Source of the DNA: Yoonia sp. GPGPB17
Lineage (GTDB): Bacteria > Pseudomonadota > Alphaproteobacteria > Rhodobacterales > Rhodobacteraceae
Reading direction: 5' to 3'
DNA length: 64,000 bases
Assembly: GCF_037892195.1 (NCBI RefSeq)
Contig: NZ_JATACI010000002.1
Location: 3,224,001 to 3,288,000, forward strand
In this document: positions 10,804-22,084 of the stretch, piece after piece
Position numbering within the stretch: the first letter of the stretch is position 1
Layout: the number at the start of each line of letters is the position of its first letter
The notes under the pieces: model-generated
Database searches by the model: none
Told to the model about the DNA's origin: nothing
What the model saw: the letters and a program-made list of their open reading frames with translations, nothing else
Translations under genes and position numbers: made by a program

Positions 10804-11207
10804 TCGGCGCGACCGCGTATCACCGAGACAACATAATGCGCAGGTGGTACCGCCCCCAGCACGGGACCCAGCCAGTAAAATGCCATCGCCGGGTCCATCC
10901 GTCCTGTGAGGCTGAGTGCCAGAAATACGAGGAAAACCCAGAGCACCGCCCAAAACCCGAAGATCAAACTGTCGCGATGTGCGACTGTATTCTGTTCGTC
11001 CCATGCGGCATCCGCTGCATCAGGATATCGAAGCTGGAGGACGAAGGATAAGGCGGCGTAGCCTATTGCGATGGTGCCAATGATACCGGCCCAGACAAGA
11101 CCCGATGGTCCGATGGACAGAAACGCAGCGGTCAATGCGGCCAGCGTTGTGATGACAAGGGCCACACTTCCAAAAAGGCGGGCGCGGCTGATCGGGTTTG
11201 CAGACAT
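10800..11207 (-). CDS. four-helix membrane protein paired with XRE regulator
   Basis: A 135-residue membrane protein with about four hydrophobic segments: SVALVITTLAALTAAFL, GLVWAGIIGTIAIGYAAL, FGFWAVLWVFLVFLAL and AFYWLGPVLGAVPPAHYVV. The pairing of a small integral membrane protein with a short XRE regulator, overlapping by four bases, is common in bacteria, where the membrane protein may control the regulator. No enzymatic motif is seen. Its function is unknown. Confidence 0.78.
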   Translation of the reverse strand: MSANPISRARLFGSVALVITTLAALTAAFLSIGPSGLVWAGIIGTIAIGYAALSFVLQLRYPDAADAAWDEQNTVAHRDSLIFGFWAVLWVFLVFLALSLTGRMDPAMAFYWLGPVLGAVPPAHYVVSVIRGRAE

Positions 11208-11226
11208 GACTGCTCCTTCTTTTTAA

Positions 11227-11274
11227 GTAACCTTTGGGTTACATAGTGATCGCGTTTTGTAACGTCAAGGTTAC
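11227..11274. promoter_or_regulatory. two GTAACC-N4-GGTTAC dyads, probable XRE operator
   Basis: Two 16-base inverted repeats, GTAACCTTTGGGTTAC at 11227-11242 (perfect 6-4-6) and GTAACGTCAAGGTTAC at 11259-11274 (one mismatch), lie 20 bases upstream of the membrane/XRE operon start. Their centres are 32 bases apart, close to three helical turns, so both face the same side of the DNA. The deformylase gene is divergent from here (start 11323). Binding by the XRE protein is inferred. Confidence 0.6.
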
Positions 11275-11322
11275 ATTTTCGCTGAGTTTGCATTTCGTCT
11301 GTTTGCGGCCTAAATCACCGGT

Positions 11323-11844
11323 ATGGCTTTGCGAAATATTCTTATTCATCCTGATCCCCGTCTCAAGAAAGTGGCGACGCCTGTGGCGTCTGTAAACGAC
11401 GACCTGCGTCGTCTTGCCGATGATATGCTTGAGACAATGTACGATGCGCCCGGCATCGGGCTGGCCGCGCCGCAGATCGCGGTGATGAGCCGGATGCTGG
11501 TCATGGATTGCGCCAAGGAAGATGACGCGACGCCCGAACCGATGGTATTGATTAATCCCGAAGTGGTTTGGACATCGGAAGAACAAAACGTCTATGAAGA
11601 AGGCTGCCTGTCAATTCCCGAACAATACGCCGAAGTGGAGCGCCCGTCCGAGGTGGAAGTCACGTGGACCGATCTTGATGGTCGGGCCCGGCGCGAACGC
11701 TTTGACGGGCTGTGGGCGACCTGCGTGCAGCACGAGATTGACCATTTGGATGGCAGGCTGTTCATCGACTACCTGAAGCCGCTCAAGCGCCAGATGATCA
11801 CGCGTAAGATGCAAAAACTGAAACGCGAAATGGCGCGGAGCTGA
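11323..11844 (+). CDS. def: peptide deformylase, canonical copy
   Basis: A 173-residue deformylase that removes the formyl group from nascent proteins. All three family motifs are intact: GIGLAAPQ, EGCLSIPE with the metal-binding cysteine, and QHEIDHLDG with the two metal histidines and the catalytic glutamate. The first of three tandem paralogues, followed by fmt, whose product puts the formyl group on initiator tRNA. The next copy starts three bases after its stop. Confidence 0.95.
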   Translation: MALRNILIHPDPRLKKVATPVASVNDDLRRLADDMLETMYDAPGIGLAAPQIAVMSRMLVMDCAKEDDATPEPMVLINPEVVWTSEEQNVYEEGCLSIPEQYAEVERPSEVEVTWTDLDGRARRERFDGLWATCVQHEIDHLDGRLFIDYLKPLKRQMITRKMQKLKREMARS

Positions 11845-11847
11845 GCT

Positions 11848-12309
11848 TTGGCGGTTCTTGCGCTCCGCTTTGAGGGTGACCCAGTCTTATTGGAAATGGC
11901 TCCGGTGGTGGAACGGTTCGATGAGGGCCTCGCCAAACTGATCCGCGACATGTTTGAAACGATGTACGCCGCACCGGGTCGCGGCTTGGCGGCACCGCAA
12001 GTCGGCGTTAGCCGCCGCGTGTTTGTGGTGGATACGGAGTGGAAAGACGCAGACCCTGCGCCGATGATCTTTATAAATCCGCAGATATTGAATCATTCGG
12101 AAGAAAAGTTGACTGGGACAGAGGCGTGTCTTTCCATTCCCGACAAAAGCTATGCGGTCAGCCGTCCCTCTTGGGTTGTGATGACGTGGCAGGATTTGGA
12201 TGGCAATCAGCATGAGGGCCGTTTTGAAGGCGTTCAGGCTATTTGCATCTGTCACGAGCTTGACCATCTGAACGGCCTTTTGATTTCGCAGACGGGAACC
12301 CTGCAATGA
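11848..12309 (+). CDS. peptide deformylase paralogue 2
   Basis: A 153-residue deformylase-like protein. The motifs are GRGLAAPQ (arginine in place of the usual isoleucine), EACLSIPD with the metal cysteine, and CHELDHLNG with both histidines and the glutamate. The metal site and catalytic glutamate therefore remain, but the glycine before the cysteine is an alanine and the protein lacks the basic C-terminal helix of the first copy. It starts at TTG, three bases after copy 1, and overlaps copy 3 by four bases. It may be active with altered specificity. Confidence 0.88.
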   Translation: MAVLALRFEGDPVLLEMAPVVERFDEGLAKLIRDMFETMYAAPGRGLAAPQVGVSRRVFVVDTEWKDADPAPMIFINPQILNHSEEKLTGTEACLSIPDKSYAVSRPSWVVMTWQDLDGNQHEGRFEGVQAICICHELDHLNGLLISQTGTLQ

Positions 12310-12806
12310 CCCACCGGCCCTTTGTCATGTGGCCGCATCCGGCATTGCGCACCCCTGCGACCCCAGTTGATGCGATTACCGATGAGGTGCGTGCGATCTG
12401 GGATGAGATGATCATGGCAATGGACCGGATGCCGGGTGTTGGGCTGGCCGCGCCGCAGTTGGGCCTTAGCATGGCTTTGGCTGTTGTTGATGCCTCGCAA
12501 GAGCGGGGTCAGGCGATCCGCATGGCGAACCCATCGGTGTTGCACAGCAGTGTTGAGCCGCGCGTGCATGAAGAAGGGTCCCCCAATTTGCCAGGCGTCT
12601 GGGCCAAAGTGACCCGCCCGCGGGCTGTCACCGTGCGTTTTCTGAATGTGGATGGGCAGTGGGACCGGCAGGACTTTGTTGGCTTGTGGGCAACGTCGGT
12701 GCAGCATCAGATTGATCATCTTGCCGGTAAGATGTTCTTTGACCATCTGACACGTGTGAAGCGGGACATGTTGATTAAGAAATCGGCCAAGGCGCGGCGT
12801 AGTTGA
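12306..12806 (+). CDS. peptide deformylase paralogue 3, probably inactive
   Basis: A 166-residue protein clearly of the deformylase family (GVGLAAPQLGLS; C-terminal FFDHLTRVKRDMLIKK), but its active site is altered. The EGCLSIP motif reads EGSPNLP, so the metal-binding cysteine is a serine, and the HEIDH motif reads HQIDH, so the catalytic glutamate is a glutamine. Both changes are expected to abolish normal deformylase activity. Its retention in the array between def and fmt suggests a regulatory or structural role, which is inference. Confidence 0.88.
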   Translation: MTHRPFVMWPHPALRTPATPVDAITDEVRAIWDEMIMAMDRMPGVGLAAPQLGLSMALAVVDASQERGQAIRMANPSVLHSSVEPRVHEEGSPNLPGVWAKVTRPRAVTVRFLNVDGQWDRQDFVGLWATSVQHQIDHLAGKMFFDHLTRVKRDMLIKKSAKARRS

Positions 12807-12856
12807 TGTTGGGATGCTTCCGGCGGAAATTTGGTTGGAAATAGAAAGTCTGGGCG

Positions 12857-13756
12857 ATGCGAATAGTCTTTATGGGGACACCTGATTTTCCGGTGCCAGT
12901 ACTTGAGGCCCTTGTTGACGCAGGTCATGAGATCGCTGCCGTTTACTGTCAGCCGCCGCGACCCGCCGGACGTGGTAAGAAGGATCGGCCATCGCCAGTG
13001 CAGCTACGCGCAGAGGCATTGGGGTTGGAGGTGCGCTATCCTGCGTCTTTAAAGGGAGACGCGGAGCAGGCCGCGTTCGCAGCGTTAGAGGCTGATGTCG
13101 CGGTTGTGGTCGCTTATGGTCTGATCCTACCGCAGGCGATTTTGGATGCACCGAGGGCGGGATGCTTGAACATTCATGCGTCTCTTTTGCCGCGTTGGCG
13201 CGGGGCGGCCCCTATTCACCGTGCGATTATGGCAGGCGATGCGGAGACGGGTGTGTGCATCATGCAGATGGAGGCTGGTCTGGATACCGGACCGGTTCTG
13301 TTGCGCGAAGCTACTGCAATTGGATCGGAAGAAACCACTGGCAGCCTGCATGACAGGCTCTCGCAAATGGGTGCTGCGCTGGTTGTGACAGCGCTGGCGG
13401 CGTTGCCAAATCTGACGCCCGAGGCGCAGCCCGAGGAAGGCGTGACCTATGCTTCAAAGATCGACAAGGCTGAGGCGCGTGTGGATTGGTCTGCGCCAGC
13501 GCTGGAGGTTAGCCAGCTAATCCGCGGTCTGTCACCTTTTCCCGGCGCATGGTGTGACGTGGCTGGCGAGCGTGTCAAACTACTGGGCGCGCGTGTTGTG
13601 GATGGTCAGGGCCAGCCGGGGCAGGTTTTGTCAGGGTTCACCATTGCCTGTGGTGATGGTGCCGTCAAAGTGACGCGGGCGCAGCGCGCGGGCAAGAAGG
13701 CGATGTCGGCGGATGACGTGCTTAAAGGGCTTACACTTGGGGTGTCGATCGGGTAA
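12857..13756 (+). CDS. fmt: methionyl-tRNA formyltransferase
   Basis: A 299-residue enzyme that formylates Met-tRNA(fMet) with 10-formyl-THF. It shows the Rossmann start [17 protein letters not shown] and the catalytic block [20 protein letters not shown] with GLDTGP, containing the conserved Asn, His and Asp. The C-terminal OB-like domain ([11 protein letters not shown]) is present. It follows the three deformylase genes in the same direction, the usual def-fmt linkage. Length is normal. Confidence 0.95.
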
Positions 13757-14803: not shown

Positions 14804-15883
14804 ATGGCGAATTTCGAGACGCAGATTAAGGACAGCCAGGCACAGGTGGCCGAGGCACAAAGCAAGATTTCAGAGCTGACCAGCCGGATTGAGATTGCAC
14901 GGACAAAAATGGCAGAAGGCACTGATATCTCTGTCGATATCGAGAACGCCAGTCTTGAGGACGTGCATGCCCATACCGAGCTGATGAACGCCAATATTGC
15001 TGAATTGATCATGGGTCTTGATGACGTCACATCCGCCTTTTCCAAAGATTTTGACGAAATGCGGTCGAAGACCGGGATGGAAAGCTTCATCGGCATCTTC
15101 AGCAAAGGTAAGGCCGACAGCATGCGGCAGGAACGCATGCGCACGGCATCGATTGATGACAAGCTGCAGGATCTGATCAGTAAGTCCGATGTGATCATGC
15201 AGTTGTTGGAAGGTCAGTTGACGGTGCTCAACGAGCAAAAGGTCAGCGTAGAAAGGAACCTTGGTGGCACGCTGGAAGAGCGTGAAGCGACCGTGGGTGA
15301 GTTGGAAGCCTTGCGGGCCGATATCCTTGGGATGGACCCGAAGATTATCGAGCTTGAGAACAAGATTTCGGTTGAACAGGACGCCGCGGCTCGCACCAAG
15401 CTGGAAACCGAATTAGCTGCCCTGAATGGCCAGTACAACGAGATGGTCCAGAACGAACAGGTCCAGCTGGCCAAGAGCCAGACGCTTGAGCGCTACATTG
15501 AAAAGGGCAAGACCTGGATCGACAGTTTGCAGAACCAGGCGGCCACGCAGATGGTGCTGATCAACAAATTGCAGACGGACACCAAGCAGCGCGTCGTGCT
15601 GTATGATGCTTTGTCAAAGTCGTTGAAGACAGCGCAACAGCAGGACGTGGCCCACCAGATCAACGAGATTGGCGTGAAGACGGACCAGGAAGCACAGTCT
15701 GCCATGGCCGCAATTGGCTCGGCCACGAACGCGCGGATGGCCGACATGCTGGAAGCGCATGAAGATCATATGGTCTTTGCCCGCGAGGTGCTGGAGGCCA
15801 AAGCGAAGGCGGACGAGCGCTTTGTGCGCCGGTTCCAGGAGATCGTGAAGAAGCATGACAGCAATCAGTATGGGGCTGAGTAA
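14804..15883 (+). CDS. cytoplasmic coiled-coil protein of the AAA+ cluster
   Basis: A 359-residue acidic, almost entirely helical protein without signal peptide or membrane segment. Heptad-rich coiled coils cover about residues 1-40 and 135-290 (for example LEEREATVGELEALRADI). The C-terminal part, with MVLINKLQTDTKQRVVLYDALSKSL, faintly recalls the C-terminal region of TelA-type toxic-anion resistance proteins, but I would not assign it. The next gene starts three bases after the stop. It is the first gene of a run that includes an AAA+ ATPase and several membrane proteins, so it may be an adaptor or scaffold. Confidence 0.72.
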   Translation: MANFETQIKDSQAQVAEAQSKISELTSRIEIARTKMAEGTDISVDIENASLEDVHAHTELMNANIAELIMGLDDVTSAFSKDFDEMRSKTGMESFIGIFSKGKADSMRQERMRTASIDDKLQDLISKSDVIMQLLEGQLTVLNEQKVSVERNLGGTLEEREATVGELEALRADILGMDPKIIELENKISVEQDAAARTKLETELAALNGQYNEMVQNEQVQLAKSQTLERYIEKGKTWIDSLQNQAATQMVLINKLQTDTKQRVVLYDALSKSLKTAQQQDVAHQINEIGVKTDQEAQSAMAAIGSATNARMADMLEAHEDHMVFAREVLEAKAKADERFVRRFQEIVKKHDSNQYGAE

Positions 15884-15886
15884 CGC

Positions 15887-16225
15887 TTGCAACTGCCGCA
15901 ATTTTTAGTTCCGGACCCAACGCGTCGGTCGGGTAAAGCATTGCGTGTTTACGCAGCGTTCGTTTTCGTTCTGTTGACTGTTTGTTTGACGGTCGAGCTC
16001 TATAGCGATGGTGTAATGTCGGGCGCGCGGCTGACGTCTAGCGGTCCGCAAATCGCGATAAGTCTCGTGACAGATTGCGATAGCTGTACGAGATTGTGGG
16101 TGCCCGCAAGCTGGCCGCAGTTTATCTGGGAATTGGCAAAGTATCTCGTTTTTGTACCAGTCGGAGCGTCATTTGCTCTGCTTGCGTACTGGCACGCGTG
16201 GGAAGTTAGAAATGCCAGAAACTAA
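15887..16225 (+). CDS. two-helix membrane protein of the AAA+ cluster
   Basis: A 112-residue protein with two hydrophobic helices, VYAAFVFVLLTVCLTVEL (about residues 20-40) and LAKYLVFVPVGASFALLAYW (about 83-105), joined by a loop with a cysteine pair (CDSC). It begins with TTG three bases after the coiled-coil gene and overlaps the next gene by 14 bases. I do not recognise a family. The tight packing supports that it is real and co-translated. Confidence 0.6.
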   Translation: MQLPQFLVPDPTRRSGKALRVYAAFVFVLLTVCLTVELYSDGVMSGARLTSSGPQIAISLVTDCDSCTRLWVPASWPQFIWELAKYLVFVPVGASFALLAYWHAWEVRNARN

Positions 16226-17333
16226 CCTCCAAGCCGATCACATGAAACTGGAAGATACTCGCGTCACCCGCCGGTATTTTGATAAGTTCGCGCGGATCAC
16301 GGGCTATCTGACCAAGGTTGCTGCCACGATGGAGGCGGAGGGCCGCTTTGATCGCAAAGAGATCGAGGTCATGGCGCGTTATCTGGTGGGTCTCAACTGG
16401 ACCTTCACAGCGCTGGCGCACAAGTACCATTTTGCGGGGCGCTTTACGCACTCCGGCAAGCTGACCTTTGACCGACGCGAGAGTGGCTTTCCTGTCTATC
16501 AGGAGCTGCTGGAGATGGCGAATGATGCCCAGCAGGCGGACCGGCATCTGGAGTCCCAACCGGGTGTGGGCGATCTGAAAGACCAGATGGTGCGGGTTAT
16601 TCTGAGCGATCAGGAGATACCGACGAAGCTGCAATATGCGTTGTCGCAGCGGCTTTACTATGAAGAGCTGTCGCGCGGGGATCAGTTCTGGGCGCGCAAT
16701 GATCCCCAGTGTTTGTGGTTGGGGAATGAAGGCGACCGACGCCGGTTCTTGGTGCACTGGGCCGTTTACGACAGCCAGGTGAACCTGCCCACGATCTACC
16801 TGATGGAGTTGGAGGATACCGGGCGCACCGGGTTGCCAAAGGATGAGCATCGCTGGCCTGAGGCACAGGCGCATCTCATGGCACAGTCGCTGGCGCATCT
16901 GAAGCTTCTGACCATTGCGAAGGGGTTTGATGAGGATTTTAAGGACCTGCATCCGACCCGCATGCGCCGGTTTCATATCGGCCCGATGTATAGCAACGCA
17001 TTTACCCGTCAGGCGGGGCCATTGCGCGATGTCTTGAGGGATGCGAATGCGCCGGCGGGCGAAGATTGGGCCTTGGTGTGGACGGAAGAAGAACTCGTGT
17101 CGGAGCGGGTAGAGAACATCAAATCGGGTTGGTTTGGATCGGTGGAGCGGCAAATCTTTGCGCTTGATCCCTTCGAAGGTGGGGGAGCCGAGACCGGCGC
17201 GAGCCGGATGGAGCGGTCTTTGATTATGCCCGAGCGCCCTTATCAGGCTTTGGCCGAGCGCAATCCCGCGGGTTTTCGCGATGTGCGTAAATTCGTGGTC
17301 AGCGATAGCGGGCGGGTGTTGAGTTACAGGTAG
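16212..17333 (+). CDS. unknown 373-residue protein of the AAA+ cluster
   Basis: A soluble protein rich in charged and aromatic residues, with no signal peptide, membrane helix or catalytic motif I recognise. The first 80 residues are helical (RRYFDKFARITGYLTKVAATM), and the middle has alternating strands (RRRFLVHWAVYDSQVNLPTIYLMEL). I chose ATG 16212, which has GGAAG six bases upstream; ATG 16242 is the alternative. It overlaps the preceding gene by 14 bases. Its place just before the AAA+ ATPase suggests a partner or substrate-recognition subunit, which is inference. Confidence 0.7.
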   Translation: MPETNLQADHMKLEDTRVTRRYFDKFARITGYLTKVAATMEAEGRFDRKEIEVMARYLVGLNWTFTALAHKYHFAGRFTHSGKLTFDRRESGFPVYQELLEMANDAQQADRHLESQPGVGDLKDQMVRVILSDQEIPTKLQYALSQRLYYEELSRGDQFWARNDPQCLWLGNEGDRRRFLVHWAVYDSQVNLPTIYLMELEDTGRTGLPKDEHRWPEAQAHLMAQSLAHLKLLTIAKGFDEDFKDLHPTRMRRFHIGPMYSNAFTRQAGPLRDVLRDANAPAGEDWALVWTEEELVSERVENIKSGWFGSVERQIFALDPFEGGGAETGASRMERSLIMPERPYQALAERNPAGFRDVRKFVVSDSGRVLSYR

Positions 17334-17351
17334 GGTGGGTCAAGACCCACC
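17334..17351. repeat. GGTGGGT-CAAG-ACCCACC hairpin
   Basis: Immediately after the stop of the preceding gene is a perfect 7-bp inverted repeat with a CAAG loop. Hairpins of this exact type are common intergenic elements in Roseobacter genomes. There is no T-run after it, so it is not a standard terminator, and it may stabilise the upstream message. Confidence 0.5.
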
Positions 17352-17410
17352 TTACGGACGGCGCTGCCAGAGACCCTGTGGCAGATGTTGGGTTTTTTGA
17401 GGGAACAGAT

Positions 17411-17450
17411 GCCTCCGGCGGAGGTGTTTGGGAACATGAGAAGAAGGAAG
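17411..17450 (+). repeat. CCTCC-GGC-GGAGG element supplying a ribosome site
   Basis: A 13-base inverted repeat (17412-17424) followed by TGTTTGGGAACATGAGAAGAAGGAAG. It resembles the element before cobM (8109-8150): a CCTYC-GGC-GRAGG hairpin, a T-rich stretch, then a GAAGAA purine run. The AAGGAAG at its end is the likely ribosome site of the AAA+ gene at 17455. Confidence 0.5.
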
Positions 17451-17454
17451 TGGC

Positions 17455-19401
17455 ATGAGCCAGTCAAGCGACCAAATGGAACTGCGGGAAGAAGACATCC
17501 GTAAACACTATATTCCTGCGGCTGAGATGCTGATGCGTCTGGATCACAGCCCGCGTTTGGCGACTGCACGGTTGTCACTTGAGGCACCAGAGAAGTCACC
17601 GGATGTGGCCGCCACTCGCCGTCGTTTTCGCTCGACCACGCCAGGGCTGTTATCGCGTACATCGGCGCCCTCTGGTGGGGTGCGCTTGTTGGACCGGATT
17701 GCGGAAACGGATAATGATGATCCGTTGACATCGCCCGCCCAGGCATCCGTTGCCCATGCTTTGCGGCGCGCATTGTCGATTGCTTTGACTGTCGCCGATC
17801 AGTTTTCGGATCAGACTGCGCTGACCGAACTGAAGCGTATCAATCTGGAGGGGCGTTTGCCGCAGGATCGCTCGGTTGAGTTTACCGAATATCTGACGGC
17901 CGAGTCGCTGGTGGCGCTCTACACTTTTGCGAATGCCACGTCGTTTTTGTTGGCCACGCAGGCAGGCGAACAGAGCGTGGATGTGGGTAGTGTCGATGAA
18001 GTTTTGACCGACAATGCACCGTTGGCGCTGCATGGCGCGATTTGGGAGCTGGATCAGAAGCTGGGTCAATTTGCCAAAGATGAGCCGACGTTGATTGCCA
18101 CGATGCTTGCCTATTCGGAACAGTTGATGGAAAAAGTCACGTTACGTGCATCGACTGCTGGGCGCTTGGCGTCGTTCAATGCCGCGTCCTGGCGGGTTGA
18201 GGCCGATGACTTTGTGGTGCAGGGCTTTACGCCTGCGCGCAAGGCCAAGGGTTCGACGCTCACGATGACCTTCAAGAAGCCGAATGAGGTCGTTGGCAAC
18301 CACATTGCCAAGTATCAGGCGATGAAGCTCAGCAAGATGCTGATGGCTTATGACTTTGACCGCAAGCTGAACCCCTTTGCCGAATTGGGCGGGTTTATCT
18401 TTACCTTCATGGGGGATGGTGCACCGGGGACGGGTAAGACGACGCTGATTCAGATGATGGCCGGGCTGGTGAATGAGTATTGCCAGACGGCGGGCTATCC
18501 GTTCCGCTATCAGAATCTGAGCACCGATAACATTGACAGCTATCAGGGTAAGTCGGGCCAGAACGCGAAGGCGTTTATCAACAATGTGCTTGATCCCGGT
18601 GTGATCGGCTTTGGCACGATTGATGATATTGACCAGTTGGCTGGTAAGCGGGGGGACCGCCAATCATCGGCGGGCCAGTTGGAGATTACGGCTGTGCTGA
18701 TGGAAAGCTTTGCCGGGGCCAACACCGTCGTGCGCGGGAATTGTACCTTTGGGATGTTCTCGAACTACCCTGAGAATGTGGACGATGCGCTGCGCCAGCG
18801 GGCTGGTGCGCGCTTCCTTGTGGATGGGCCGCAGACGCGCGAAGACTACATCGACATTCTGTACCTCTTGATGGGCAAGAACCACGACATTCCCGTGGGT
18901 GCGCATGAGGTGTTCAGCGCCCAAGAGATCAAGAAGGCAGTTGCCGCAAGTTTCGAAAGCCATGCGCGCCCGCATGAAGAAGGCTTGCAACGGGTATTTG
19001 AGCGAGTGCACGGCCAGATTGGTGATCTGGACACAATTGCGAAGCTGGGCACCTATTTGAAGGGCATTCAGGAGGCGGATGCGCGCTTTACCGGCCGTGC
19101 AATCAAGAACATTACCGATGCGGTGAAGGTTCGGGCGATGGATTTCGAGCTGCCCGATGAGTGGATGGAGGAACCCGATCTGTTCTTGTTCAAGGACTAT
19201 GATACGAAGAAGGGCATGATCTCGGAACTGCGCCAACCGATCACAGTTGAGATGGTAATCCAGGAAATCAACCGCTACGCCGACAGTGAATTCCGTTATG
19301 CGGATAAGTCAGATGAGGTGGCGATTGAGAACATGGTGCGTGACTTTGGCCGACAGGAGATTGCCAAGAAACGGTATCTGGAGGGGAAGGCTGGTTCGTG
19401 A
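17455..19401 (+). CDS. AAA+ family ATPase
   Basis: A 648-residue protein. An N-terminal region of about 300 residues, largely helical and unlike any domain I know, is followed by one AAA+ module. Walker A is GAPGTGKT at residues 322-329, Walker B is GFGTIDDID with aspartates 390 and 391, and a likely arginine-finger segment is DDALRQRAGAR. After the lid there is a further helical region to the C-terminus. This looks like a ring-forming remodelling ATPase with a novel N-domain. It follows a 121-base gap, so it may have its own promoter. Downstream genes overlap or abut it. Substrate unknown. Confidence 0.85.
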   Translation: MSQSSDQMELREEDIRKHYIPAAEMLMRLDHSPRLATARLSLEAPEKSPDVAATRRRFRSTTPGLLSRTSAPSGGVRLLDRIAETDNDDPLTSPAQASVAHALRRALSIALTVADQFSDQTALTELKRINLEGRLPQDRSVEFTEYLTAESLVALYTFANATSFLLATQAGEQSVDVGSVDEVLTDNAPLALHGAIWELDQKLGQFAKDEPTLIATMLAYSEQLMEKVTLRASTAGRLASFNAASWRVEADDFVVQGFTPARKAKGSTLTMTFKKPNEVVGNHIAKYQAMKLSKMLMAYDFDRKLNPFAELGGFIFTFMGDGAPGTGKTTLIQMMAGLVNEYCQTAGYPFRYQNLSTDNIDSYQGKSGQNAKAFINNVLDPGVIGFGTIDDIDQLAGKRGDRQSSAGQLEITAVLMESFAGANTVVRGNCTFGMFSNYPENVDDALRQRAGARFLVDGPQTREDYIDILYLLMGKNHDIPVGAHEVFSAQEIKKAVAASFESHARPHEEGLQRVFERVHGQIGDLDTIAKLGTYLKGIQEADARFTGRAIKNITDAVKVRAMDFELPDEWMEEPDLFLFKDYDTKKGMISELRQPITVEMVIQEINRYADSEFRYADKSDEVAIENMVRDFGRQEIAKKRYLEGKAGS

Positions 19402-19744
19402 GCGCGCTCTTTTCAGACGCATTGTTTCTGCTTAGGCGCTTGTGCTTGGGTTTCTTGCCTTTGTGGTCCCGCGCACCTTGGCCCGGACGTTGCCGGAAGG
19501 GGTCAAGCCCCTGATGCTGAATGCCTTCCTATCGACCATTCTGCTATTCGTCTTGTCTGCGCTGTTCTTCTTTTGCCTGTACCTCTGGCAAGGGGTGAAT
19601 GCTGCTGAGATTGCGAAATCTGGCCTGACCGCAAACGTCTTGTTCTTTGGTAGGCTGGGGTTGATTGCGGCCCTGATCTGGGCGCCAATCATGATACTGT
19701 CCGTGGCGGGCTTGCCGCGCAAATGGGTGAGGGAGACGTGGTAG
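19398..19744 (+). CDS. small membrane protein of the AAA+ cluster, reading frame broken near its start
   Basis: The obvious open frame starts at GTG 19442 and gives 100 residues with hydrophobic segments LGFLAFVVP, AFLSTILLFVLSALFFFCLYLW and ANVLFFGRLGLIAALIWAPIMI. In another frame, a GTG at 19398 overlaps the ATPase stop by four bases and reads MSALFSDALFLL before a shift at CTTAG (19431-19435). Joining the two gives a continuous first membrane helix, and the length 19398-19744 is two bases over a multiple of three. I therefore think the native start is 19398 and the frame is broken here. No family recognised. Confidence 0.6.
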
Positions 19745-19745
19745 A

Positions 19746-21098
19746 ATGCACCGATTGATCGAAAAGGGCCTTATGTTCGGGAACCTGATCCGGGTGGATT
19801 CTCCTGTTTTGGTAGAGCGATACAATCGTGCGCTAAAGCACCTTATGGGGCGCGAAACATCACTGGATGTGTTCCATATTGATATCTCCGGATACTCACC
19901 AGAGATTGGTGATGAGTTCGAAGATGCCCTCTATCTGAATCACAAAGGCGTCAACCGGCAGTTTATTCTGCTAACGACGGAACAGGCGACGGCCCCGCTT
20001 TTGAATGCAAAATTCTCGACCTCGCGTGGTATCCTGCGGCAGTTTATCGAAGAAAACCGGTCGGAGTTGTTCGCGCTGACAGCCCGCGACGCGGTTGCGG
20101 GGGAATTGGTGAATTCGGTCTTTCTGGCGGATACCCCGGCCAAACTGTTTGATATCCGCAAGATCGCGATCGAGGCGGACACGACCAGCGGAACGGTCGC
20201 CGAAGCCGCCAAGCTGGGCGAAATGATCGACCGCTTTAAGACAGAGCCGGGCGGCTGGTACGATGATGTCTTGATTGCTGACATGATCGGGATGGCCAAG
20301 CGAACGGGGGATGTGGTGCGCAACCCGGTTGCGTTGCGGCAGATGTCCTTTGGGCAAGAGAATTTTTGGACGGATCATTTTGGCGGCATGTATCTGTTTC
20401 GCGGGGTCGCGCATCCGGCGGCCATTGTCGCCAAGAAGAAAGAAGGCTTTGACGACCTGCCGATCCCTTTCGTTTTTGATTTTGAGGACCGTTCTGCGAT
20501 TGCCAAGTTTTTGACGCTGAATGACCTGGTGGAACCGATCATGGAGGCACGCGGCGTCGATTCTGCGGCCATCCTGCATCAGAAGATGGATTTCATCGTG
20601 GCCTCCGTCGCCGCAGAGATGCAAGAGGACCTTGCAGGTGCCACGCGTCGCGATCTGCGCCGGTTGGGCCGCCAGTATGCAGACCGGTTGCCAGAGGCTT
20701 GGCAGGGGTTGGCAGCACTATTGCGGTGGGCCGAAGAGGATGGTCCGTGGCCGACGATTACGTCAGAACACCCCGCCTATTTCTATACATTGCGGGCCAA
20801 GGCGCATGTCGATGCGGACCTTGTGAATATGCTGTTGGCAGAGCTGACCCCACTGGATATCCGCCAACTTTTCATCTGCCATAAAGAGGTATTCTACCGC
20901 ACCTATGCGGGCTGGCCGGATGAAAAGCGCGCTTATGTCGTTGATTTTCTTGACCGGGAGTACCAAGTCGATAAGGCTGGGACGCGCGAGGCGCTCTTTG
21001 GTCATGAGGCCCCGATGACGGAGATGCCGCGGGTCCGGCAGCCTGATCTGATATCGCGCGTGGGACCGTGGGGTGCGGTCGCAAGAGGGAGACGCTGA
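19746..21098 (+). CDS. unknown 450-residue protein of the AAA+ cluster
   Basis: A soluble protein beginning LIEKGLMFGNLIRVDSP, with a repeated preference for acidic and aromatic residues and no signal peptide or membrane helix. I recall close relatives in rhodobacterial genomes listed only as a domain of unknown function. No nucleotide-binding or metal motif is visible; the conserved-looking segments are VFHIDISGYSPEIGDE, VNRQFILLTTEQ and FYRTYAGWPDEKRAY. It begins one base after the preceding stop and overlaps the next start by one base, so it is part of the same transcript. Function unknown. Confidence 0.75.
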   Translation: MHRLIEKGLMFGNLIRVDSPVLVERYNRALKHLMGRETSLDVFHIDISGYSPEIGDEFEDALYLNHKGVNRQFILLTTEQATAPLLNAKFSTSRGILRQFIEENRSELFALTARDAVAGELVNSVFLADTPAKLFDIRKIAIEADTTSGTVAEAAKLGEMIDRFKTEPGGWYDDVLIADMIGMAKRTGDVVRNPVALRQMSFGQENFWTDHFGGMYLFRGVAHPAAIVAKKKEGFDDLPIPFVFDFEDRSAIAKFLTLNDLVEPIMEARGVDSAAILHQKMDFIVASVAAEMQEDLAGATRRDLRRLGRQYADRLPEAWQGLAALLRWAEEDGPWPTITSEHPAYFYTLRAKAHVDADLVNMLLAELTPLDIRQLFICHKEVFYRTYAGWPDEKRAYVVDFLDREYQVDKAGTREALFGHEAPMTEMPRVRQPDLISRVGPWGAVARGRR

Positions 21099-21373
21099 TG
21101 GGTTTTATCAAACTTGTGATCTTTGGCTTTATTGGGCTGACCGTCATCTATTTTTCGGTTTCCATCTATTCGCGGTCCGTGCGCAAGGAACGGCTGGAAG
21201 ATGAATTTGATGCCAATCACCCTGACGGCGGTGCGCCCGGCGCACGCGATGCCTTTGTATCCGAAGGGTTGCAAACCTATGATAGCTCGATCCGGCCGAA
21301 ACTCATTGGACTGGTCTATGTGGTCCCGACTGTCGTACTCGGGACGATCGTCTATATGATTAACGCCAACTGA
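21098..21373 (+). CDS. two-helix membrane protein of the AAA+ cluster
   Basis: A 91-residue protein with two membrane helices, LVIFGFIGLTVIYFSVSIY near the N-terminus and LIGLVYVVPTVVLGTIVYMI near the C-terminus, separated by an acidic loop of about 35 residues. The ATG overlaps the preceding stop as TGATG, a typical coupling signal. A longer version from an ATG at 21068 is possible but unlikely. It is 12 bases before the DUF1523 gene. No known family. Confidence 0.72.
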   Translation: MGFIKLVIFGFIGLTVIYFSVSIYSRSVRKERLEDEFDANHPDGGAPGARDAFVSEGLQTYDSSIRPKLIGLVYVVPTVVLGTIVYMINAN

Positions 21374-21385
21374 AGGACGGACAAT

Positions 21386-22084
21386 ATGCGTAGGATCAAA
21401 ATCACTTTTCGTGTTCTTGTCTTTTTGGTGGTCGGCAGTCTGCTGCACTACGCGCTGCCGCAGCATGATGTTGTCCGGGTGGTGAATACCTATCAGGAAC
21501 GGCAGGACCTGAATGACTGGACACGCATCTTCTGGGCGCGTCCTGATGATCAGTCGGCGACACTGGTCAATCGCGATGTGCAGTTCATTCAGACCGTCAA
21601 AAAGCGCACTTGGCTTTTGGGTTTTGTCCCGCGCGACACTACCGAAGTGATGGTGTACCGTAATGAAGATACCGGTTGGGGATGGCCATTCTATTTCAAG
21701 TTTGACACTGCAAATCTGCAAACAGAGGCCGATGACCTAGTGTCAACAGCCGAAGCCCCGAAATGGGCGGTTGTGACCCATTATGGCTGGCGCAATGAGT
21801 ATGTCTCTGCCTTTCCCAACGCGATTGCGATCCGCCCGGTCGAAGGGCCAAACGTCACGATCATTCCGTGGTTCAACATCTTCTTCTTCATCTTCATGAT
21901 GGCAGCGATCTTGTTTATTCGCGCCATGTGGCGGCAGTTCCGGGAGCGTTCTGTTGATCCGCTGTTGGATGCAGCAGGCCATCAGATTGATGAGGTGCAG
22001 GCAGACGTTGCTGAGCGCAAAGGGCGCCTATCCCGCTGGCTCGGCACATGGCGCGACAAAAACAAGAACCGACCTATCGACTGA
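21386..22084 (+). CDS. DUF1523 family membrane protein
   Basis: A 232-residue protein matching DUF1523: an N-terminal membrane anchor (VLVFLVVGSLLHYALPQHDVVRVVNTYQ region), an extracytoplasmic domain (DWTRIFWARPDDQ, GWGWPFYFKFDTANLQ), and a second helix (IPWFNIFFFIFMMAAILFI) followed by a basic cytoplasmic tail. The family is widespread in Rhodobacterales and has no assigned function. It closes the AAA+ cluster; 15 bases later the convergent aldehyde dehydrogenase gene ends. Confidence 0.82.
   Translation: MRRIKITFRVLVFLVVGSLLHYALPQHDVVRVVNTYQERQDLNDWTRIFWARPDDQSATLVNRDVQFIQTVKKRTWLLGFVPRDTTEVMVYRNEDTGWGWPFYFKFDTANLQTEADDLVSTAEAPKWAVVTHYGWRNEYVSAFPNAIAIRPVEGPNVTIIPWFNIFFFIFMMAAILFIRAMWRQFRERSVDPLLDAAGHQIDEVQADVAERKGRLSRWLGTWRDKNKNRPID

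Follow-up and report, generated by a model that had tools for sequence, protein, structure and literature searches.

Four linked genes with a classical AAA ATPase in Yoonia and other Rhodobacterales

PspA/Snf7 proteins are associated with classical AAA ATPases in bacterial gene neighbourhoods, according to PMC11237479. This association is the nearest published idea to what we describe here: a module of four genes – g1, g3, g4 and g6 – within a run of eight plus-strand open reading frames (ORFs; g1 to g8) at 14804-22084 of a 64,000-nucleotide (nt) stretch of the genome of Yoonia sp. GPGPB17 (contig NZ_JATACI010000002.1, positions 3,224,001 to 3,288,000; hereafter the window). As in Vps4/ESCRT-III and PspA/Snf7, a classical AAA ATPase (g4) is coded beside a helical protein (g1), and the first-ranked Foldseek row for g4, among rows that the AAA domain dominates, is a Vps4 chain. 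As far as compared, the module differs in its partners: g1 has no detectable similarity to PspA, for which the genome has a gene elsewhere, and with g3 and g6 the module has two more partners that set it apart from Vps4/ESCRT-III.

Two other systems bear comparison. With TRIP13/Pch2 the module shares similarity in the AAA domain of g4 and possibly what we take to be a GR sensor-2 motif; it departs from TRIP13/Pch2 in having aspartate instead of glutamate at Walker B, in an N-domain of ~260 residues that is mostly helical in the model, and in g3, for which there was no HORMA-like match among the Pfam and structure matches. TelA (with XpaC), of the tellurite-resistance type of system, is, like g1, a helical, soluble-looking protein of ~400 amino acids (aa) from the same genomes, but it is found in 147 of 149 genomes and the module in 89.

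Joint presence and absence of g1, g3, g4 and g6

A sequence-only reading of this DNA had treated the eight genes as one joint cluster. The ORFs lie where it placed them (Table 1), and part of the claim held, since the AAA ATPase, the helical protein and two others are inherited together; the eight as a whole do not travel together. They appear not to be one system, and it is g1, g3, g4 and g6 that are linked and kept or lost together. Each of the four occurs in 89 of the 149 genomes of a fixed sample of the order Rhodobacterales, and among the matches listed these are the same genomes (the listed members all belong to the window's family, and 40 genomes with no match are unlisted). In a sample of 398 genomes of the phylum g4 and g6 are present in the same 26.

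Gene order is also conserved. Among 80 related loci (the best 80 of 530 confirmed loci, from named records, and a sample of close relatives) g3 and g4 were found in 80, g1 in 79, g6 in 77, g5 in 24 and g2 in none, with g7 and g8 in 74 each; where g1, g3, g4, g6, g7 or g8 is missing the place is at a contig end, save in one locus (L081) discussed below. The usual order in Rhodobacterales is g1-g3-g4-slot-g6-g7-g8, a slot being the place between g1 and g3 or between g4 and g6. Ratios of nonsynonymous to synonymous change (dN/dS) of the four large ORFs were 0.015-0.09 in the 23 comparisons, of 24, that had a finite dS (in the remaining one, g1 against L045, synonymous sites were saturated), so that g1, g3, g4 and g6 behave as real genes under purifying selection. 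The most conserved of them is g1, with a mean pairwise identity of 0.80 (79 loci).

Two genomes are particularly informative. In G104, of the same genus, fmt, the L,D-transpeptidase gene, g5, g7, g8, an aldehyde dehydrogenase gene and deoC are kept in the window's order and exactly g1, g3, g4 and g6 are absent, though in the window g5 parts g4 from g6. Loss is favoured over an ancestral state, because the module is present in the 13 other members of the genus that were listed, among them the window's genome. G123 has only fragments of the four genes, on one contig; an intact DUF1523 gene (g8) and g7 stand on another. A g4 match in a further locus that lacks the module (L186) falls within deoC, and we regard it as spurious.

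The ATPase and its three partners

The protein g4 matches PF00004 (E 4e-11; 43.9 bits against a cut-off of 21.2), and the Walker A motif and Walker B aspartates are at the residues that the sequence-only reading had given. Across 96 diverse rows there is no variation at G322, P324-T329, Q364, D390, D391, N437, R447, R449 and R453, while conservation is 90% or more at Y363, G365 and S367; the Walker A pattern is present in 79 and the Walker B pattern in 80 of the 80 related loci. The pore-loop, sensor and arginine-finger roles of these motifs are ones that we presume. Most AAA proteins have Asp-Glu at Walker B. Here the catalytic glutamate expected of a canonical unfoldase is replaced by aspartate in 96 of 96 rows.

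An AlphaFold2 model of g4 (pLDDT 82.7, pTM 0.57) shows helices in the N-domain (94-243) and a further one at 598-646. Foldseek and VIA both put the AAA domain with p97, FtsH and proteasomal Rpt, and Foldseek also puts it with Vps4; the domain is predicted to have an ordinary, well-known AAA fold. Since the VIA rows cover residues 265-611, whole-model searches are uninformative on the N-domain, and a sequence search of the PDB likewise matched only the AAA domain. No MIT match was found in Pfam at E 1, the fold of the N-domain not having been searched alone.

The same domain raises the question of whether g4 might remodel a conformational-switch protein (g3 or g6), as TRIP13/Pch2 does, rather than a helical one. 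An FTGRA at the sensor-2 place resembles TRIP13-type ATPases; the PADLOC TRIP13 model matches the AAA domain (1.7e-5), and TRIP13 itself (5vqa) stands at rank 41 of the AAA-dominated Foldseek rows. But the matches listed for g3, whose gene adjoins that of the ATPase, include no HORMA row, the weak ones being mostly T-fold enzymes, and we think this reading very unlikely.

For g3, to which neither Pfam nor NCBIfam assigns a family above cut-off, AlphaFold2 gave a confident model with no convincing PDB match. Most of its VIA rows are T-fold proteins, the matches being weak. From about residue 176 to 305 the model runs strand-strand-helix-helix-strand-strand, apart from one extra helix. This is the T-fold order, as in urate oxidase, dihydroneopterin aldolase and GTP cyclohydrolase. 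The best match of g3 in a viral fold library (E 0.0068, probability 0.23) was unconvincing. In contrast, g6 is readily assigned to a family, DUF6638 (PF20343; E 1.5e-234, 779.1 bits against a cut-off of 27); homology between g3 and g6 was rejected on comparison. Sequence searches of the PDB gave a best E of 0.81 for g1 and of 1 for g6, and nothing for g3.

Two identities considered for g1 were set aside. TelA was plausible by eye, but the single match of PF05816 in the window's own genome at E 0.1 lies at C2:1468340 and is not g1, and hhalign gave a probability of 0.4% (shallow TelA profile). PspA/ESCRT-III was rejected at profile level, with an hhalign probability of 1.6% against PspA_IM30 (shallow profiles); PF04012 is not among the 25 families listed, of 45, for 16 g1 members.

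What might these proteins do together? We see about an even chance that g1, g3, g4 and g6 together make up a single cytosolic AAA machine in which g1 is the substrate and g3 and g6 are adaptors. To judge from its AAA domain g4 would form the ATPase ring; the helical g1 would be the most likely substrate, its assemblies threaded or dismantled by the ring; g3 and g6 would couple substrate to ring; and the place of action would be the cytosol. In the Rhodobacterales version g2 and g5 would occupy two slots, with the resident g5-g7-g8 set interleaved with the module.

A number of considerations weigh against such a machine. Its contacts and substrate are putative, and g1 is probably a coiled coil as read from sequence and composition, not structure. 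Hydrolysis by g4 may be weak, because aspartate stands for the usual Walker B glutamate in every row. The 149 genomes are relatives and not independent cases, and the phylum sample was searched with two of the four, g4 and g6. Distances of the four genes correlate mutually at r 0.77-0.86, hardly better than with the neighbouring aldehyde dehydrogenase (0.75-0.82; 28-29 loci), so that the genes mostly follow species. In L081 (Frigidibacter) the stretch does not include g6, g7 or g8, and 1.6 kb separate g4 from g3. Finally, the decay in G123 may be an assembly error, because that genome is a draft of ~140 contigs.

Membrane slots, DUF1523 neighbours and gene calls

The sequence-only reading envisaged membrane tethering, and the corresponding alternative to the four-protein machine is a complex of all eight gene products, in which the two-transmembrane (two-TM) proteins and DUF1523 would tether the AAA ring to the inner membrane, and whose task would be to maintain the envelope. 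By hydropathy window, two TM segments are predicted in each of g2, g5, g7 and g8 and none in g1, g3, g4 or g6. That g7 and g8 follow the module, in the usual order, in most related loci is in keeping with the larger complex. However, the DUF1523 family, to which g8 belongs as had been read from the sequence (PF07509, E 1.9e-66), is present in 143 of the 149 order genomes, sometimes in two copies, regardless of the module. Of the 60 genomes of the sample that lack the module, 24 were picked because they have DUF1523; its neighbours include g7 in 20 of these and g5 in six. Thus g5, g7 and g8 look like a separate resident DUF1523 set, interleaved with the module.

In 59 loci, the window among them, the first slot (g1-g3) is a gap of 120 nt or more; 55 of these have an ORF with a predicted TM there, and 45 one with two or more TM; shuffled sequences gave 9% and 0.25%, and the reverse strand 3% and 2%. 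In the second slot (g4-g6) the counts were 59 and 52 of 75 loci, against 22% and 1.5% for shuffles and 12% and 0% for the reverse strand. Both slots are far above the other co-directional gaps of these loci: of 85 that measure 120-800 nt, 10 have a TM ORF and three have one with two or more TM. Such gaps are not fully matched controls, since the simple gene finder behind them counts any ORF over 130 aa as a gene (it recovers g4 in 78 of 80 loci), and some slots exceed 800 nt. This enrichment, too, accords with a membrane-bound complex, but the slot proteins lack conservation. When the best ORF of each slot is taken, the 55 proteins of the first slot form 36 clusters and the 59 of the second form 18, with 23 of the 59 belonging to the resident g5 family. 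For g2 (in which the CDSC loop noted earlier is indeed present) there was no tblastn match at E 1e-3 in any of the 80 related loci, and its DNA had no blastn match. Searched at 0.01, 49 slot proteins matched six Pfam, three NCBIfam and one PADLOC families, with one member each. Several slot ORFs (L037-L116) have Gly/Asp-rich tails at their end.

In nine loci examined outside the order the core genes have no TM ORF between them, though gaps of 120 nt or more occur in only six of the nine (seven such gaps in all); of two divergent members of the family, L152 has a two-TM ORF in the second slot and L154 none. The slots therefore look like a Rhodobacterales trait lying outside the core, with content that turns over between species. 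The four conserved proteins being without predicted TM, and the membrane genes a separate set or contents of hypervariable slots, the proposed tethering is not supported. Nor is the envelope role that had been suggested from the L,D-transpeptidase just upstream: that gene is within the stretch in only 28 of the 80 related loci, so that there is no firm link to the envelope. All told, we hold the eight-protein complex to be rather unlikely.

Could the four-protein core instead drive exchangeable membrane effectors from the two slots, as a system of defence or competition? Patchy presence in order and phylum, the loss and decay of the four genes together, the strong variation of small membrane ORFs in the two slots and the PADLOC TRIP13 match would all fit. 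The PADLOC matches, however, are partial, none extending over a full protein, and those of g1 (3.7e-5 and 2.4e-4) are probably compositional; one slot protein of the 49 has a PADLOC match, at 0.008. Moreover, the named neighbours are housekeeping-like, the module mostly follows species, slots outside Rhodobacterales show no TM ORF, and a pattern scan of viral contigs, with 160 pattern matches, contained no relative. We regard a defence function as decidedly unlikely. The same scan led us to reject a viral origin. Among PHROGs only the AAA part of g4 was matched (phrog_168, clamp loader, 4e-6; phrog_3757, of unknown function, 3.9e-5 in the window and 9e-14 with the Vibrio protein); the other proteins scanned had no match at 0.01.

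Table 1. Features of the g1-g8 locus (positions in the window).
Feature	Positions	Strand	Description
g1	14804..15883	+	core; 359-aa helical (probably coiled-coil) protein, no predicted TM
g2	15887..16225	+	not core; 112-aa two-TM ORF, TTG start, hypervariable slot 1
g3	16212..17333	+	core; 373-aa alpha/beta protein
Palindromic repeat	17331..17351 (also given to 17355)	+	in g3-g4 gap
g4	17455..19401	+	core; 648-aa classical AAA ATPase, mostly helical N-domain ~1-260 and long C-terminal helix (model)
g4 Walker A	18418..18441	+	GAPGTGKT, residues 322-329
g4 pore loop 1	18538..18555	+	SYQGKS, residues 362-367; putative, role presumed
g4 Walker B	18613..18633	+	GTIDDID, aspartates 390-391
g4 arginine finger	18787..18813	+	ALRQRAGAR; putative segment, role presumed
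g5	19442..19744	+	not core; 100-aa two-TM protein of DUF1523 neighbourhood, slot 2
g6	19746..21098	+	core; 450-aa DUF6638 protein, no predicted TM
g7	21068..21373	+	not core; 101-aa two-TM protein, likely start 21098, usually adjoins DUF1523
g8	21386..22084	+	not core; 232-aa DUF1523 membrane protein, with or without module

The gaps from g1 to g8 are 3, -14, 121, 40, 1, -31 and 12 nt. Near-universal tight junctions had been claimed, and the description suits those of -31 to 12 nt; the g3-g4 and g4-g5 junctions, at 121 and 40 nt, are not tight. A wider pattern of the palindrome in the g3-g4 gap has two copies genome-wide, and similar palindromes occur in the gaps of related loci. The start of g7 is probably the ATG at 21098, which overlaps the stop of g6, rather than the GTG at 21068, the listed start being 30 nt too early. 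A 2-nt length difference near the start of g5 (window 19398-19450) separates it from its relative in L037, and the L037 start (GTG, here 19398) is consequently out of frame in this genome. Pfam gave nothing above cut-off for g1, g2, g3, g5 or g7, and NCBIfam named none of the eight proteins above cut-off. Upstream, at 11323-12806, two to three ORFs, which we take to be deformylase-like, stand in a row before fmt.

Spread beyond Rhodobacterales and significance

The order g1-g3-g4-g6 recurs in six rhizobial or rhizobia-like loci, the genomes of three of which (L143-L145) would be rhizobia-like to judge by identity. DUF2333 comes next in five of the six (L002, L004, L143, L144 and L145, not L005), with two TM in L002, a point in favour of the eight-protein complex. 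In L002 (Sinorhizobium) an IS4-like element and an endonuclease-domain gene lie at 10918-13046, between the ATPase and DUF6638 genes. In two Vibrio loci (L003 and L006) the four genes stand directly before mfd, with two genes of no assigned function upstream. G198 (L142), from another family of the phylum, has g1-g3-g4-g6-g7-g8 with 56-70% identity in the core, which suggests transfer, perhaps from a Rhodobacterales-like donor. With a Vibrio query the named matches also include Psychromonas, Neptuniibacter, Spartinivicinus, Hellea and Mesorhizobium. Protein searches, 120 matches of each being listed, reached their candidate limits, with 4057 matches counted for g4 (a number that may include other AAA proteins) and 3094 for g3.

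The literature was consulted through open-licence papers. These yielded no description or characterised member of the module, no paper on DUF6638 and, among the papers listed, no described role for DUF1523; like the sequence-only reading, we found no match to a described machine. The locus tag SMc02733, given in a table of PMC3687685, has a presumed link to the module on which nothing here depends.

Motors of this kind are known; it is the other three families and their linkage that were not found described. A bolder interpretation, which we consider a long shot, is that the module represents a new class of bacterial AAA remodelling machine, in which the ring would handle a highly conserved helical polymer, g1, via two dedicated adaptors, g3 being a ring-forming, catalytically dead T-fold docked on the ring, and the two-TM proteins of Rhodobacterales would be swappable membrane outputs of one conserved motor. 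It is unusual for small membrane ORFs to be hypervariable at set positions within a conserved cluster.

Eight unlabelled genes have thus become a testable four-gene unit, carried by 89 of 149 genomes of the order and present also in rhizobia and Vibrio. DUF6638 gains three constant partners and DUF1523 is taken out of the system, while G104 and G123 provide natural comparisons.

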